Below are positions 28,469-34,515 of a stretch of 64,000 bases of DNA, one piece after another. The notes beneath the pieces were generated by a model, which ran no database searches, had not been told where the DNA came from, and worked only from the letters and a program-made list of their open reading frames with translations. This DNA is from Streptomyces torulosus (GTDB taxonomy: Bacteria > Actinomycetota > Actinomycetes > Streptomycetales > Streptomycetaceae): contig NZ_LIRK01000204.1 in NCBI RefSeq assembly GCF_001419765.1, positions 1 to 64,000 of the forward strand. The letters run 5' to 3'. Position 1 is the stretch's first letter. Every line of letters starts with the position of its first letter. The position numbers were made by a program, and so were the translations under genes.

Positions 28469-28882
28469 TCAGAGGTCCCTGGCGGCGGAGGGTTCGGGTT
28501 GTCGGGCGTCCACGCCGAGGTGTTCGCCGACACGGTTCACCATCAGGGTCATCTCATAGGCGATCTGACCGATGTCCGCTTCCGCGGCGCTGAGCACGCA
28601 CAGGCAACTGCCCGCGCCGGCCGCGGTGACGAAGAGCATGGCGTCGTCGAACTCGATCATCGTCTGCCGTACGTCACCGGCGCCGAAGTGGCGTCCCGAG
28701 CCCTTGGCGAGGCTGTGCAGCCCCGATGAGACCGCGGCGAGGTGCTCGGCGTCCTCACGCCTCAGCCCGGTACTGGCCGCCGTGACCAATCCGTCGCTGG
28801 ACAGCACCAGTGCGTGTCGTACGGGTTCCAGGCGCTCGGTCAAGTCGTCCAGCAACCAACCGAGTCCCGCGTTCTGCGGCAT
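28469..28882 (-). CDS. Orphan Roadblock/LC7 domain protein
   Basis: A 137-residue cytoplasmic Roadblock/LC7 protein (LDWLL-like GLGWLLDDLTERLEPVRHALVLSSDGL, then HLAAVSSGLHSLAKG and MIEFDDAMLFVTAAG). It is clearly a paralogue of CvnB at 30713-31150, about 2 kb away. In conservons this protein couples the sensor kinase to the small GTPase. Here it stands alone, divergent from an F420/FMN-binding gene, so may compete with CvnB for the same partners. ATG 28882 gives the family N-terminus. Confidence 0.85.
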   Translation of the reverse strand: MPQNAGLGWLLDDLTERLEPVRHALVLSSDGLVTAASTGLRREDAEHLAAVSSGLHSLAKGSGRHFGAGDVRQTMIEFDDAMLFVTAAGAGSCLCVLSAAEADIGQIAYEMTLMVNRVGEHLGVDARQPEPSAARDL

Positions 28883-29455: not shown

Positions 29456-30061
29456 TCAGCTCACCGAGTCGAGCAGCCGGGCGGTGTGCATCCGTCCGGC
29501 GTACTCGACGAGGCGTATCAGTACCTCCTTGCCGGAGGCGCGGTCCCGCGCGTCGCAGAGGACCACGGGAGTGCCCTGGTCGAGGTCGAGGGCGCGCGAC
29601 ACGTCGTCGGGGCCGTAGGCGCCTGCTCCGGTGAAGCAGTTGACGGCGACCACGAACGGGATGTGCCGGTGCTCGAAGAAGTCCACCGCCGGGAAGCAGT
29701 CCTGGAGTCGTCTCGTGTCCGCGAGGACGACCGCCCCCAACGCGCCCTGGGCCAGTTCGTCCCACAGGAACCAGAACCTGTCCTGGCCCGGGGTGCCGAA
29801 CAGATAGAGCGACAGGCCGGACCGGATGGTGATGCGGCCGAAGTCCATGGCCACCGTGGTGGTCACCTTCTGATCCACTCCGCCGGTGTCGTCGACCGAC
29901 TGGCCGGCCTCGCTCAGGAGTTCCTCGGTGCGCAACGGCTTGATCTCGCTGACCGCCCCCACCAGGGTGGTCTTGCCCACGCCGAAACCACCGGCGACGA
30001 GGATCTTCAATGCCAGGGCGCCCGTGTCGCCGTCTGTCGTGTCGGAGTGCTGGGAGGCCAT
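29456..30061 (-). CDS. cvnD: Conservon small GTPase (CvnD)
   Basis: A 201-residue Ras-like ATP/GTP-binding protein. P-loop GGFGVGKTT near residue 24, G3-like GTPGQDRFWFLWDE, and VNCFTGAGAY in place of NKxD. This is the fourth gene of the conservon operons, acting with CvnA, B and C in a membrane-associated complex proposed to resemble eukaryotic G-protein signalling. Unusually, 215 bp separate it from cvnC, whereas these genes normally abut. GAGAGAAG upstream serves as ribosome-binding site. Confidence 0.9.
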   Translation of the reverse strand: MASQHSDTTDGDTGALALKILVAGGFGVGKTTLVGAVSEIKPLRTEELLSEAGQSVDDTGGVDQKVTTTVAMDFGRITIRSGLSLYLFGTPGQDRFWFLWDELAQGALGAVVLADTRRLQDCFPAVDFFEHRHIPFVVAVNCFTGAGAYGPDDVSRALDLDQGTPVVLCDARDRASGKEVLIRLVEYAGRMHTARLLDSVS

Positions 30062-30064
30062 CGA

Positions 30065-30274
30065 TCACTTCTCTCGGGAGTGCGGGGCAAGGTCGACATC
30101 GGTACTGCTGTGCGGAGCCAGCATCATGACAACTTCCGCTCCACAACGGGGTGTTGGACCGGTTCTTCCTGGCATCGACCGACTCGTGCGTGTTCGATGC
30201 CCGGTTGGATGCACAAGTTCGAACGAGATCGACCCGCACCGTTGCCCGTCCCTACGGCTCGTACTGTTGTTCAT
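30065..30274 (-). CDS. Candidate 69-residue small protein between cvnC and cvnD
   Basis: This frame starts with ATG 2 nt after the cvnC stop and ends 3 nt before the cvnD start, filling the unusual gap exactly, as an operon member would. It contains Ser/Arg/His-rich segments (RTRTSRSMPGRTGPTPRCG) and a weakly hydrophobic EVVMMLAP patch. Against it: third-position GC is much lower than in neighbouring genes and no family is recognised. Alternatives: a long untranslated regulatory region, or a horizontally acquired fragment. Confidence 0.35.
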   Translation of the reverse strand: MNNSTSRRDGQRCGSISFELVHPTGHRTRTSRSMPGRTGPTPRCGAEVVMMLAPHSSTDVDLAPHSREK

Positions 30275-30276
30275 GA

Positions 30277-30699
30277 CTACAGCGCCCTCAGCCCGGCGAT
30301 CACCTCACGCAGGATGCGCTCGTCCGGCAGTTGCGCGGGCGGCACCGGCCGGCTGACCGTGACGTGGCCCAGTTCGAGGAGGTCACCGAGGAGTACTCGC
30401 ACCACGCCGACCGGCAGGTCGGCTCCGGCGGCGAGTTCGGCGACCGACTGGGTCTCGGTCCGGCACAGTTCGATCAGCGTGCGGTGTTCGGGACCGAGTG
30501 AGGTGTCCCCGTCGACGTCGGGTGCGCCGATGTGGAGGGACACCAGGGCGATCAGGTCGAAGCGGACTCCACTGGGGCCGGGGGCGGTGCGTCCGCCGGT
30601 CATCGCGTAGGGGCGGACGAGGGGCCCGGCCTCGTGGTCGTACCACTGGCTGCCCGGCGGCTCGTGCGGAGCGCTCGTGCTGTCCTCGGTCATGAGCAC
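30277..30699 (-). CDS. cvnC: Conservon DUF742 protein (CvnC)
   Basis: A 140-residue DUF742 protein: LVRPYAMTGGRT, FDLIALV, LGPEHRTLIELCRTETQSVAELAAGADLPVGVVRVLLGDLLELGHVTV and a C-terminal ERILREVIAGLRAL. The central part is a winged-helix-like fold. It is the third conservon component. GTG at 30699 is preferred since GGGAA lies 6 nt upstream; ATG 30693 is the alternative. It begins 13 nt after cvnB. Confidence 0.9.
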   Translation of the reverse strand: MLMTEDSTSAPHEPPGSQWYDHEAGPLVRPYAMTGGRTAPGPSGVRFDLIALVSLHIGAPDVDGDTSLGPEHRTLIELCRTETQSVAELAAGADLPVGVVRVLLGDLLELGHVTVSRPVPPAQLPDERILREVIAGLRAL

Positions 30700-30712: not shown

Positions 30713-31150
30713 TCATCCGGCGACGGGTGGCCGCGCGCCGGCGCGCGGAGCGGTGTAGAGGTGCTCGCCCACGCGTTTCACGAGCCGTGCCATCTCGTAC
30801 GCCACGAGGCCGATGTCCGCGGTGACGGCCGTGAGGACGGCCAGGCAGGAGCCGTCTCCGGCAGCCGCCACGAAGAGGAAGCCGTCGTCCATCTCCACCA
30901 TGGTCTGGCGCACTCCCCCGGTGCCGAAGTGGCGGCCCGCTCCCTTGGCGAGGCTGTGGAAGCCGGAGGCGACGGCCGCGAGATGCTCGGCGTCCTCGCG
31001 TGCGAGGTCGGTCGACGCACCGACGGCGAGTCCGTCGTTGGACAGCACCACCGCGTGTCGCACCTCATGCACGCGCAGTACGAGGTCGTCCAGCAGCCAG
31101 TCGAGTTCTCCGGACCGTCCGGTGGCCCTGGTGGTCGGGTCCTGGATCAT
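30713..31150 (-). CDS. cvnB: Conservon Roadblock/LC7 protein (CvnB)
   Basis: A 145-residue Roadblock/LC7 protein (LDWLLDDLVLRVHEVRHAVVLSNDGLAVG, HLAAVASGFHSLAKGAGRHF, MVEMDDGFLFVAAAG). Its start overlaps the cvnA stop by ATGA, giving translational coupling to the sensor. Known role: regulatory scaffold between sensor kinase-like CvnA and GTPase CvnD. Confidence 0.92.
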   Translation of the reverse strand: MIQDPTTRATGRSGELDWLLDDLVLRVHEVRHAVVLSNDGLAVGASTDLAREDAEHLAAVASGFHSLAKGAGRHFGTGGVRQTMVEMDDGFLFVAAAGDGSCLAVLTAVTADIGLVAYEMARLVKRVGEHLYTAPRAGARPPVAG

Positions 31151-33684
31151 GCGGGGTCTCCTTCGCTGCTGTCGCTGCCCGTCGTGGGGCCGTGGGTGAC
31201 GCCTCGTCCGGGTGCCCTGCCGCCGCCTCGCGTCCAGCCGTCGCGGTAGGCCGCCATACGGTCCCGTACGAGTTCGGGGGTGCGGTCGTCGTCGCCCCCG
31301 TGGCTCGGGGCAGGTTCCGGCCCGCGGCTGTGCCGGTCGCGCAGTTGGGGGGCGAGATGGGCCTGCCGTACCCGGCGTGGCAGTTCACCGGTGGGGTCCG
31401 GCTCCTGCGGCGGACGGTGCTGCCGCAGGGCGGTGACGCCCGGCGGGGGCGGTTCGGGCGGGCCGCCCGCCATGGACTCCCCGGCGGAGGCCACGGGAGC
31501 CATCAGTGCCCGCCGGTCGACGGACTGCTCCACGGGGTCCTGACGCGGACCGGCGTGCACGCGCGCGTACTCCCGTTGCTCGGGCCGCCGCTGTGCCTCG
31601 ACAGTGGCTCGGGGGGAACGTTCCGTCGTGCCGTTGTGCAGCAGAGCGGTCGGCAGGAGGACCACGGCTGTGGTGCCACCGTAGGGAGAGGGCCTCAGAT
31701 GGACCTTGATGCCGTGGCGGGAGGAGAGTCGGCTCACCACGAACAGTCCGAGACGGTCGCTGTCGAAGAGGTCGAGGGCCTCCGACTGCTCGATCCTGCG
31801 GTTGGCCTCGTCGAGGGTCTCCTTGCCCATGCCGAGCCCGCGGTCCTCGACCTCGACGGCGTATCCGTTGCCGACGGGTTCCCCGGTGATCCGCACGCGC
31901 GTGTGCGGTGGTGAGAACTGGGCTGCGTTCTCGACGAGTTCGGCGAGGAGGTGGATGAGGTCGGCGACGGCGGCACCGGCGATCCGTGCCTCGGGCAGTT
32001 GCCGTACCTCCACGCGCGCGTAGTCCTCGATCTCGGAGACGGCTGCGCGGACGACGTTCGTCAGGGAGACAGGCATGCGCCAGGCGCGGCCCGGTGCGGC
32101 TCCCGACAGGATGATCAGACTCTCCGCGTGGCGTCGCATCCGGGTGGTGAGGTGGTCGAGCCGGAAGAGGTCGCTGAGCTCGTCGGGGTCCTCGGACCTG
32201 CGTTCCATGCTGTCGAGGAGGCTCAGCTGGCGGTGGACGAGGACCTGGCTGCGGCGGGCGAGGTTGACGAACACTCCGGAGATGCCGCCGGCCAGTTCGG
32301 CGCGCTCGACCGCCGCGCGGAGGGCGGCCCGGTGGACGATGCGCAGCGCCTCGGCGACCTGGCCGGTCTCGTCCTCGGCGGCGGGCCCCGGCGGGGCCTC
32401 GGCGTCGACGTCGATCTCCTCTCCGGCCCGCAGTTTCCGCATGGCGTGGGGCAGTTTGCGGCGGGCGATCTCCAGGGCTCCGTTCCGCAGGCTCACCAGC
32501 TCGACGACGAGTCCGCGCCCGATGCGTACGGAGATCACGAGCGACGCGGCGACGGCGGCGAGACCGAGGAGCACGGCGGCACCGGCCGGGGTGAGGAGGG
32601 CGCGCGTGAACGGGTCGGCCCGCTCGGCCACGTCGCGTCCGGCGTCGGCCTCGATCTTCCGCATCCTGTCCCGCACGCGCGTGTGGGCCGACTCCCAGAC
32701 ATCCACCGGTGCCGCGGTGAGCGCCTTGCTGCCGGGACGGCTTGCGAGCACCTTGTCCTCGACGGCGTTCAGGTCGGTGTAGGCGTCGCCCTCGGCGAGT
32801 TCTTCCCATGCCGCCCGTTCGGGGCCACGGAGGTCGGCGGCAGCGGCTTCGGTCAGGGTGTGGCGGGCACCCGCGGCGCCGCTGAACAGACGCAGTCGTT
32901 CGCCGTCGAGGGTGCCGGAGAGCCGTGCGCCGGCCAGCAGCGCCTCCTCCTGGGCGAGGGCCTCGGCCGCGCGGGAGAACTCGAGCAGCACGCGCGCGTC
33001 GGAGCCCGTTTCGGCGTCCTGGATGCCGCTGAGTGCGCCGCCCACACCGAAGGCCGTGGAGATGGTCGTGGTGTACCTCTGGTACGTCTCCGCCCAGCCG
33101 CTACGACGGTCGAGCACCGACGCGCGCAGGGGGCGCAGTTGCTCGGCACCGGAGACGAAGGCCGCGAGCCGCTCGGCGACCCCGGCGGGTAGGTCGATTC
33201 CGTCGGCGACGGTGTGCCGGCCGCCCAGACGCAGTCGGGCGACCGCGCGATCGGATGCCCGGGAGAGTGCTTCCAGGTCGCTCCCGTGTGCGTCGGAGGG
33301 CCTCGTGGTGTACCGCACGGCGGCGGCACGCTCGGCCTGGAGCGCGGCGACCGCGTCGGCGACCGGGGCGCGCACGGAGGCGTCGACGCGCTGGAGCTGC
33401 CGAAGCCGGGCGACGTCCTGGGCGGTGGTGACGGTGGCGTACGCCCACAGGGCGAGCAGGGAGACGACGGGCACCATCAACAGGCAGATGATCTTGGCTC
33501 GGACGGTGCGGGGGCGTATGTGCGGGCGGCCGGCGCGTCTGGGTGGGCCGGTCGTGTGAGCGCCGGTCTCGTCGGGGGCGAAACCTTCGTCGGCCGGTGG
33601 TCCCGCGTGGGCGCGGCGTCCGCGCGCCGCGGGCCGGGTCGGCGTCTCGGCGCCGGTGGTCGAGGTCCTGCCGGATGTACGCAT
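31147..33684 (-). CDS. cvnA: Conservon sensor histidine kinase-like protein (CvnA)
   Basis: An 845-residue membrane sensor. It has a basic N-terminal tail, a first membrane helix at about 65-85, an extracytoplasmic NIT (nitrate/nitrite-sensing-like) helical region with AERAAAVRYT, a second helix at about 380-400, HAMP, and an HATPase domain with N-box LVENAAQFSPPHTRV, G1 EDRGLGM and G2 RLGLFVVSRL. The LDHLTTRMRRHAE segment replaces a classical phospho-His box. The Arg/Pro-rich C-terminus is probably disordered. It is first gene of the conservon. Confidence 0.92.
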   Translation of the reverse strand: MRTSGRTSTTGAETPTRPAARGRRAHAGPPADEGFAPDETGAHTTGPPRRAGRPHIRPRTVRAKIICLLMVPVVSLLALWAYATVTTAQDVARLRQLQRVDASVRAPVADAVAALQAERAAAVRYTTRPSDAHGSDLEALSRASDRAVARLRLGGRHTVADGIDLPAGVAERLAAFVSGAEQLRPLRASVLDRRSGWAETYQRYTTTISTAFGVGGALSGIQDAETGSDARVLLEFSRAAEALAQEEALLAGARLSGTLDGERLRLFSGAAGARHTLTEAAAADLRGPERAAWEELAEGDAYTDLNAVEDKVLASRPGSKALTAAPVDVWESAHTRVRDRMRKIEADAGRDVAERADPFTRALLTPAGAAVLLGLAAVAASLVISVRIGRGLVVELVSLRNGALEIARRKLPHAMRKLRAGEEIDVDAEAPPGPAAEDETGQVAEALRIVHRAALRAAVERAELAGGISGVFVNLARRSQVLVHRQLSLLDSMERRSEDPDELSDLFRLDHLTTRMRRHAESLIILSGAAPGRAWRMPVSLTNVVRAAVSEIEDYARVEVRQLPEARIAGAAVADLIHLLAELVENAAQFSPPHTRVRITGEPVGNGYAVEVEDRGLGMGKETLDEANRRIEQSEALDLFDSDRLGLFVVSRLSSRHGIKVHLRPSPYGGTTAVVLLPTALLHNGTTERSPRATVEAQRRPEQREYARVHAGPRQDPVEQSVDRRALMAPVASAGESMAGGPPEPPPPGVTALRQHRPPQEPDPTGELPRRVRQAHLAPQLRDRHSRGPEPAPSHGGDDDRTPELVRDRMAAYRDGWTRGGGRAPGRGVTHGPTTGSDSSEGDPA

Positions 33685-33738: not shown

Positions 33739-34515
33739 CTAGTGGGCGGCGGCGCTCCCGACGGGCTGTTGGGCCGACGCGGAGGCCTCGCGTTCCCCGG
33801 CCGTCGGCGACAGCGCGACGAACGCCGAGGTGAGGAAGAGATAGGACCCGAGGCCGACGGCGAGGGGGAAGATGAACTGCATCGCCGTGACCCCGGGCAG
33901 GTTTTCGCCGGAGGGAGCGACCTCCACGCGCACCGCCCACATGGCGGTGTAGTGCATGCTGCTCACCGCGCCGCCCATGACCATGGAGGCGACGGTGACC
34001 GCGAGGGGCGACCTGATGTTGAGGGCCGCCCACAGGGCGGCGGTGGCCGCGACGACGGCGATCACCACGGAGAGCGCGACGAGGGCCGGGTCGTATGTCA
34101 CCTCGCCGTGCATCCGTACCGCCGCCATGCCCAGGTAGTGCATGCTGGCGACGCCCAGTCCGGTGGTGAGGCCGCCGAGAAGAAGCGCCCGTTGGCGGTT
34201 GCGGCTGTAGCCGACGGCGAAGACTCCGCCGCAGACGACGGCCATGGCGACGAGCAGGCTGAGGATGGTCAACGGCACGTCGTAGCGGAGTTCGGTGCCG
34301 CTCACACCGAAGCCGAGCATGGCCACGAAGTGCATGGTCCAGATGCCGGTGCCGATCGCGGACGCTGCGGTGACGAGCCAGTTGCGGCGGGCGCGGCCGG
34401 TGGCGCCCAGCGCACGGACGGTGCAACGCAGTCCGAGTGCCGCGCCCATGCAGGCCATCACGTACGACAGCACGGGGGTCAGCCAGCCGAAGGTGGCGTG
34501 GTCCAGGTGTCCCAT
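33739..34515 (-). CDS. MHYT-domain membrane sensor
   Basis: A 258-residue protein with seven predicted membrane helices. It carries the three MHYT-type motifs TMHFVAML, SMHYLGMA and SMHYTAMW, which are proposed to bind copper and sense O2, CO or NO. No GGDEF, EAL or kinase output domain follows, so it is a stand-alone MHYT protein. It lies 54 nt upstream of cvnA on the same strand and could be co-transcribed with the conservon, supplying it with a gas or redox input (inference). Confidence 0.88.
   Translation of the reverse strand: MGHLDHATFGWLTPVLSYVMACMGAALGLRCTVRALGATGRARRNWLVTAASAIGTGIWTMHFVAMLGFGVSGTELRYDVPLTILSLLVAMAVVCGGVFAVGYSRNRQRALLLGGLTTGLGVASMHYLGMAAVRMHGEVTYDPALVALSVVIAVVAATAALWAALNIRSPLAVTVASMVMGGAVSSMHYTAMWAVRVEVAPSGENLPGVTAMQFIFPLAVGLGSYLFLTSAFVALSPTAGEREASASAQQPVGSAAAH

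Follow-up and report, generated by a model that had tools for sequence, protein, structure and literature searches.

The window analysed here, a stretch of 64,000 nucleotides from Streptomyces torulosus, contains a conservon on the minus strand. On the basis of Pfam domains, cvnA (31147–33684; NIT sensor and HATPase, PF08376 and PF02518), cvnB (30713–31150; roadblock/LC7, PF03259), cvnC (30277–30699; DUF742, PF05331), and cvnD (29456–30061; conservon small GTPase, PF03029) follow each other in this order on one strand. As stated in the first-pass annotation, cvnC and cvnD are parted by an insert of 215 bp (30062–30276, minus strand), and the 69-codon ATG frame that it described there (30065–30274) does start 2 nt past the cvnC stop and end 3 nt ahead of the cvnD ATG. 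The GC content is 0.61–0.63 in four 120-bp windows placed mostly inside the gap, and about 0.65–0.77 over cvnC and cvnD. Directly upstream of cvnA, and on the same strand, is the gene for an MHYT-domain protein (33739–34515, minus), and a second roadblock/LC7 gene (28469–28882, minus) is located downstream of cvnD. The gap had been regarded as unusual for a conservon, which holds within the genome itself, but the difference is less clear-cut than claimed. Among eight paralogous conservons with both genes found, six are compatible with overlap; the paralog L039 has about 52 nt between cvnC and cvnD, and for L042 a distance of 154 nt is reckoned on the assumption of the same CvnD start, the CvnD frame being open further upstream.

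Relatives were collected from 246 genomes of the same genus, 245 of which have a CvnD match (the weaker best matches possibly being paralogs), and from a named set of 80 genome contigs, with some genomes shared between the two sets. In the same-genus set, 109 loci were read, i.e., 30 plus 79 of the further listed places, the latter not being all of them, and one region, G114, was left out since it offers too little upstream DNA. cvnC and cvnD occur together in 104 of 109 same-genus loci and 72 of 80 named loci, giving 176 in total, and the distance between them ranges from a 20-nt overlap to a gap of about 300 bp, with the exception of three loci where an inserted gene brings it to more than 800 bp. 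A cvnC match is missing in 5 of 109 same-genus and 8 of 80 named loci; eleven of these thirteen were treated apart, and the other two (L103 and L116) are situated at contig edges.

Within the insert, a module of 73 bp (30113–30185, minus; alignment A1, model R1) is conserved among relatives, and constitutes a probable promoter region for cvnD. The alignment of 59 diverse loci has a mean column identity of 72%, few indels, and fixed spacing. In the genome of S. torulosus, the module model gives a single match at E = 4e-14, with the next best at 0.09, and at E ≤ 1e-6 the module is present in 98 of 392 genomes, with one match in each when strict filters are applied, some of the scanned genomes having supplied the model. 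All 31 matches from genomes outside the earlier locus sets adjoin a cvnD. Of the two possibilities raised for the gap in the first-pass annotation, that of an unusual regulatory insert is supported by this conserved, single-copy DNA module tied to cvnD.

The core of the module, TTGTCATGAT (30123–30132), fits an extended −10 element (TGN plus nATnnT). Extended −10 promoters carry TGN directly before the −10 hexamer and do without a −35 hexamer; a C at the first hexamer position, as in the core, departs from the −10 consensus. Of 127 distinct modules, 112 match the core pattern TTG[TC]CAT[AG][AC]T exactly and 118 contain TGN-nATnnT, figures to be read with the knowledge that the 127 modules were gathered with a pattern near the core motif, and that the −10 interpretation arose post hoc ("distinct" counts here and below exclude identical sequences). 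A −35-like hexamer at spacers of 15–19 nt occurs in at most 1 of the 127 modules, and no sigma-70 pair was found. Upstream of the core, the box GGTCCAAC (30153–30160) is positioned 19 nt before GTTGTCATG and is a possible activator site; its GGTC is 20 nt from an upstream GGTC repeat (30177–30180). Counted from the A of the leader start described below, GGTC is found 33 nt before in 87 of 127 modules and 53 nt before in 64 of 127. In the rest of the genome, matches to the box pattern show no enrichment (71 vs 69 for the control) and thus do not outline a regulon. An ECF-type reading of GGTCCAAC-N19-GTTGTC was compared with ECF consensus sequences and rejected on account of a spacing misfit and no genome-wide enrichment. 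Further upstream, at about 30191–30220 (minus), there is a palindrome-like stretch that is degenerate in the window and corresponds to TTCGG-N3-CCGAA in several relatives with longer gaps.

The ATGATG at the core opens a short leader frame of 20 codons plus TGA (MMLAPHSSTDVDLAPHSREK; 30065–30127, minus) that overlaps the module. Its length varies between 13 and 46 codons in relatives, and 64 of 72 loci keep it in phase with the TGA of the cvnD ribosome site. Among the 31 modules new to the analysis, 27 have ATGATG, and 23 of these 27 leaders are in phase, 22 of them free of internal stops, the in-phase leader with an internal stop being that of L285. When two repeats of earlier loci are set aside (L284, identical to L178, and L270, 97% identical to L200), 21 of 25 new leaders are in phase; the exceptions to the phase rule number 8 among the 72 loci and 4 among the 25 new ones. 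Downstream of ATGATG, length differs in 16 of 36 nearest pairs, and 12 of the 16 differences are multiples of three (p = 0.0008). Stops amount to 0 per 993 codons in the leader phase, and to 3 per 986 and 16 per 922 in the other phases, with about 13 expected from composition; the motif, which itself inflates counts, and the ribosome site are left out of this comparison, as is an early TGA in L111 and L195, located two codons ahead of the normal stop and bordering on the ribosome site. The loci are related, and the phase and stop figures are therefore not independent tests. The start-to-stop phase is conserved and stops are avoided, as for a translated upstream open reading frame (uORF).

Conservation of the leader phase does not extend to the peptide. 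In the middle part of the leader, pN/pS is 1.03, compared with 0.88 and 0.96 in the shifted frames, i.e., about 1 in all three, and since the peptide drifts freely, translation rather than the product seems to matter. An attenuator-type leader peptide finds no support in the form of purifying selection on residues, a terminator, or a consensus structure of the module. Ahead of the leader ATG, anti-SD pairing scores the same as in shuffled sequence, and a ribosome site hinted at by a control with random gap positions was removed by a composition-matched control. Outside the crown group, lineages have ATA, or an out-of-phase ATG, at the leader start, and the leader thus does not accompany the module everywhere. 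In lineages with CATACT or CATGCT, the hexamer reading is retained but the leader start is lost or altered, an argument for the DNA element as the primary feature. In seven loci (L066, L070, L090, L094, L104, L112, and L114), the distance from the TGA to the cvnD ATG is one base shorter (TGATCATG), whereby the phase relation between leader and cvnD is altered and the leader still ends at the same TGA. A clade devoid of the module (L089, L117, L118, L119, L124, L184, L206, and L210) has another short frame, of the MTGTHVHDHPHREK type, which also ends at the same TGA before cvnD, and has a GTG start in L124.

The 176 loci divide into 71 with core and in-phase leader, 22 whose core is not followed by an in-phase leader, 51 where a gap, close to zero in a few, lacks the core, 29 with overlapping genes, and the three with an inserted gene. 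In a tree of CvnC–CvnD, for which 165 rows were kept, all 66 rows with core and in-phase leader fall in one group of 116 rows, next to overlapping lineages; this group has an SH-aLRT support of 86, obtained with a quick method and no bootstrap.

Several relatives provide natural tests of whether the module belongs with cvnD or with the operon. In L131, L135, and L217, the module is found beside cvnD despite a reverse-strand gene between cvnC and cvnD. By eye, the inserted genes are hydrolase-like in L131 and L135, and acetyltransferase-like in L217. In L264, L296, and L297, the module is kept and the genes downstream of cvnD are retained, and there is no cvnA, cvnB, or cvnC within 6.4–8 kb upstream, the roadblock gene downstream of cvnD not being counted as cvnB. 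Weaker module matches (E 3.5e-6 to 0.0015) are present in L208, L219, and L224, with no cvnC within 3 kb, and in L133 and L139, with none within 1.3 kb. L076 keeps the module next to a remnant of cvnC in which only the last 21 codons match, and which is adjoined by MHYT fragments; cvnA and cvnB were not found in the stretch read. Because the module remains where cvnD cannot be read from cvnC, it is best understood as a cvnD promoter. Five loci with no nearby cvnC (L234, L236, L237, L239, and L247) gave no module match, and together with the 51 gaps that lack the core they indicate that cvnD can do without the module.

The borders of the insert give a clue to its origin. The true cvnC tail, LREVIAGLRAL plus stop (30277–30312), is the first copy of a repeat, the second copy of which is located at the start of cvnD (30042–30077, minus) and reads PREVIDGLPALR in the cvnC phase. 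Inside the second copy are the cvnD ribosome site GAGAGAAG (30068–30075) and the TGA that ends both the 69-codon frame and the leader frame (30065–30067). In Kitasatospora sp. SolWspMP-SS2h, Kitasatospora sp. GP82, and Streptacidiphilus jeojiense, cvnC and cvnD overlap by exactly 20 nt (outgroup rows L240, L241, and L249), such that the ATG of cvnD falls within the tail of cvnC. In outgroup rows L238, L242–L245, and L248, the start cannot be placed because the N-terminus of CvnD differs too much, and an ancestor with cvnC and cvnD overlapping by 20 nt is therefore probable rather than proven. REVI is encoded at 116 of 131 cvnD starts, but the ribosome site by itself dictates these letters; it does not dictate the longer REVIxGLxxL, which is found in the cvnC phase at 65 of 131. 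Since the cvnC tail is kept and a second copy is present at the cvnD start, the junction was probably duplicated and DNA put between the copies. The first-pass annotation considered the fit of the 69-codon frame between the two genes to be operon-like. The boundaries are correct, but they constitute weaker evidence than they seem to, since the stop TGA is part of the conserved cvnD ribosome site, GAGAGAAGTGATCGATGG, which is present also in relatives that lack the 69-codon frame. Judged from the outgroup overlaps and the copied cvnC tail, the stop 3 nt ahead of cvnD is inherited as a part of the ribosome-site sequence. The direct repeats at the two ends of the insert would also allow clean deletion, which may explain its patchy distribution.

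Taken together, we consider it probable that the gap is a regulatory insert that uncouples cvnD from cvnC, and that the module is a promoter for cvnD accompanied by a leader frame. According to this proposal, duplication of the junction would have set a second cvnC tail with the cvnD ribosome site before cvnD, with new DNA in between, and the new DNA would carry cvnD's own promoter in the form of the core TTGYCATGAT and the upstream GGTC repeats. A regulator bound at the GGTC repeats, a candidate activator, would recruit RNA polymerase to the extended −10 element. Transcription is expected to start 5–8 nt downstream of a −10 hexamer, which places the predicted start near 30117 (expected range 30115–30119) and would yield a separate cvnD message, so that expression of the GTPase gene could be independent of cvnABC. 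The ATG contained in the core would open the leader of about 20 codons that ends at the pre-existing TGA in the cvnD ribosome site. A start at the place predicted by the −10 element leaves the leader ATG upstream of the message, and the leader would thus be used only on read-through transcripts. On any transcript that includes the leader, such as a read-through message from cvnABC, translation would terminate 3 nt ahead of the cvnD start and could reinitiate at that point, and an in-phase leader would prevent ribosomes from running out of phase over the cvnD start. Promoter activity, the regulator, the start site, translation of the leader, and reinitiation are steps that we infer from the sequence.

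A more far-reaching proposal, which we regard as tentative, is that CvnD leads a second life independent of the conservon, with a private promoter, no need for CvnABC, and the product of the roadblock gene at 28469–28882 as partner, the leader serving to balance private and operon output. Eleven loci with sequence read on the downstream side as well have no cvnA–C in the upstream flank read (3–8 kb; L208, L219, L224, L234, L236, L237, L239, L247, L264, L296, and L297), and a roadblock gene follows cvnD in all eleven. The cvnD–roadblock pair thus persists where cvnABC is missing from the flank read, and CvnD may have a partner outside the conservon. The gene that follows cvnD in these loci is a relative of the roadblock/LC7 gene in the window.

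Translation rather than transcription could be the purpose of the insert, if ribosomes leaving cvnC restarted at a nearby ATG, read through to the TGA, and so kept cvnC and cvnD coupled, the module being secondary. The gap is indeed open back to the cvnC stop in the phase of the 69-codon frame in 101 of 124 distinct gaps, compared with 82 and 30 of 124 in the other two phases, and of the 55 in-phase loci, 50 have no stop in the frame back to that of cvnC. The outermost start is within −4 to +6 of the cvnC stop in 54 of 124 distinct gaps, and in the clade with short gaps (e.g., L184, L206, and L210) the frames ending at the common TGA have AG-rich sequence before their ATG. Openness of the upstream part is weak evidence because the GC content is high, however, and both the start position and the 5′ phase are often broken. 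Furthermore, such a bridge does not account for the module staying with cvnD where cvnC is absent, and we find it unlikely as the main role of the insert.

Less probable still is that the 69-codon frame encodes a real small protein, the undescribed conservon component suggested in the first-pass annotation. Its openness to the cvnC stop and the starts near that stop would suit a gene, but the 5′ part, comprising 49 codons (30128–30274, minus), is open and has no sign of coding constraint. The annotation proposed to judge the frame by its conservation in orthologous conservons and by an excess of synonymous changes, and both comparisons speak against a protein. The 5′ length differs in 24 of 36 nearest-neighbor pairs and disregards phase, 10 of the 24 differences being multiples of three (binomial p = 0.39 vs one third). 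In the nearest relative, L010, nine of the 49 codons are changed non-synonymously, one of these being the start (ATG to GTG), and one synonymously, whereas third positions account for 7 of 9 changes in cvnC and 18 of 24 in cvnD. No Pfam family matches the product at E ≤ 0.001, and the best NCBIfam match, at 0.077, is far under the cut-off; the same Pfam threshold gives neither a P450 nor a GAF domain, and the product is thus neither CvnE nor CvnF. A full-length small protein was rejected on the combined grounds of phase, substitution pattern, and absence of a family. The last 20 codons, which are identical in L010, behave differently in that they hold phase with the TGA in most relatives, and for this part the multiples-of-three spacing overturned the view that the frame lacks conservation. 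A coding-like signature is thus carried by the leader part of the frame, where the pN/pS value close to 1 disagrees with selection on a product.

The module could also be an RNA element, such as a riboswitch, an attenuator, or a processing site, instead of a promoter, in keeping with its conservation, its single copy, and its position directly upstream of one gene. The 59 aligned sequences do not yield a consensus structure, however, and a hairpin between the GGTCCAAC box and the ATG that looked plausible by eye was discarded for this reason. Rfam matches were limited to two weak ones outside the gap, both below their gathering scores, and within the gap nothing was matched at E ≤ 1; no terminator-like site was found either, which makes an RNA element improbable. 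Least credible is a module that binds a protein to repress or block transcription from cvnC into cvnD and has no promoter of its own, since the repeats at 20-nt spacing and the fixed geometry would agree with a binding site, but the module is kept where a reverse-strand gene intervenes or cvnA–C are missing nearby, and there is no reading from cvnC to block.

Conservons are treated as four-gene units in which the output of the GTPase is set by the neighboring proteins. If the insert is a regulatory element with a promoter for cvnD, the ratio of GTPase to its regulators would itself be regulated, and the GTPase may act without the sensor kinase. The 73-bp module offers a concrete target in this respect, and there are natural strains with cvnD and no adjoining cvnA–C. 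The case would further illustrate a route by which a neat "gap-filling ORF" can originate, from an inherited stop in a ribosome site and an ATG in a promoter-like core.

The proposed promoter resembles known extended −10 promoters in having TGN before an nATnnT hexamer and no −35 hexamer, and differs from them in the C at the first hexamer base and in having a predicted start site. Conservons, or actinobacterial G protein systems, are described in passages of two reports as cvnA–D with cvnE or cvnF as accessories (PMC13343842, PMC8510531), the accessory genes encoding P450 (CvnE) or GAF (CvnF) proteins in the former (PMC13343842). The S. torulosus operon agrees with these in the order of cvnA, cvnB, cvnC, and cvnD on one strand. 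Unlike the described conservons, it is split by an insert with a cvnD-specific module, and the insert encodes neither CvnE nor CvnF. Judging by titles and passages, none of the literature matches listed deals with a promoter, uORF, or small ORF within a conservon. BldC binds at cvn1 and cvn4 in Streptomyces venezuelae (PMC6428758), and these are not equated with the present operon.

In mycobacteria, small upstream ORFs are known whose ends coincide with or adjoin the start of the following gene, and the corresponding study proposes that the coupling may raise downstream expression (PMC4633059). The leader resembles them in being small and in stopping shortly ahead of a larger gene's start. The mycobacterial ORFs are supported by footprints in that study, and many of them are the first gene on a leaderless transcript (PMC4633059), whereas the leader frame is in the middle of an operon, has its ATG in a promoter-like core, and is translated by prediction. 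Another parallel is mgtQ in Salmonella, presented in excerpts of its report as an intergenic small ORF that promotes translation of mgtB (PMC8092293). In the account given there, mgtQ depends on alternative stem-loops and acidic residues, and neither an RNA structure nor a residue requirement was found for the leader. Like mgtQ in these excerpts, the leader is a short intergenic ORF inside an operon, with a predicted action in cis on the next gene.
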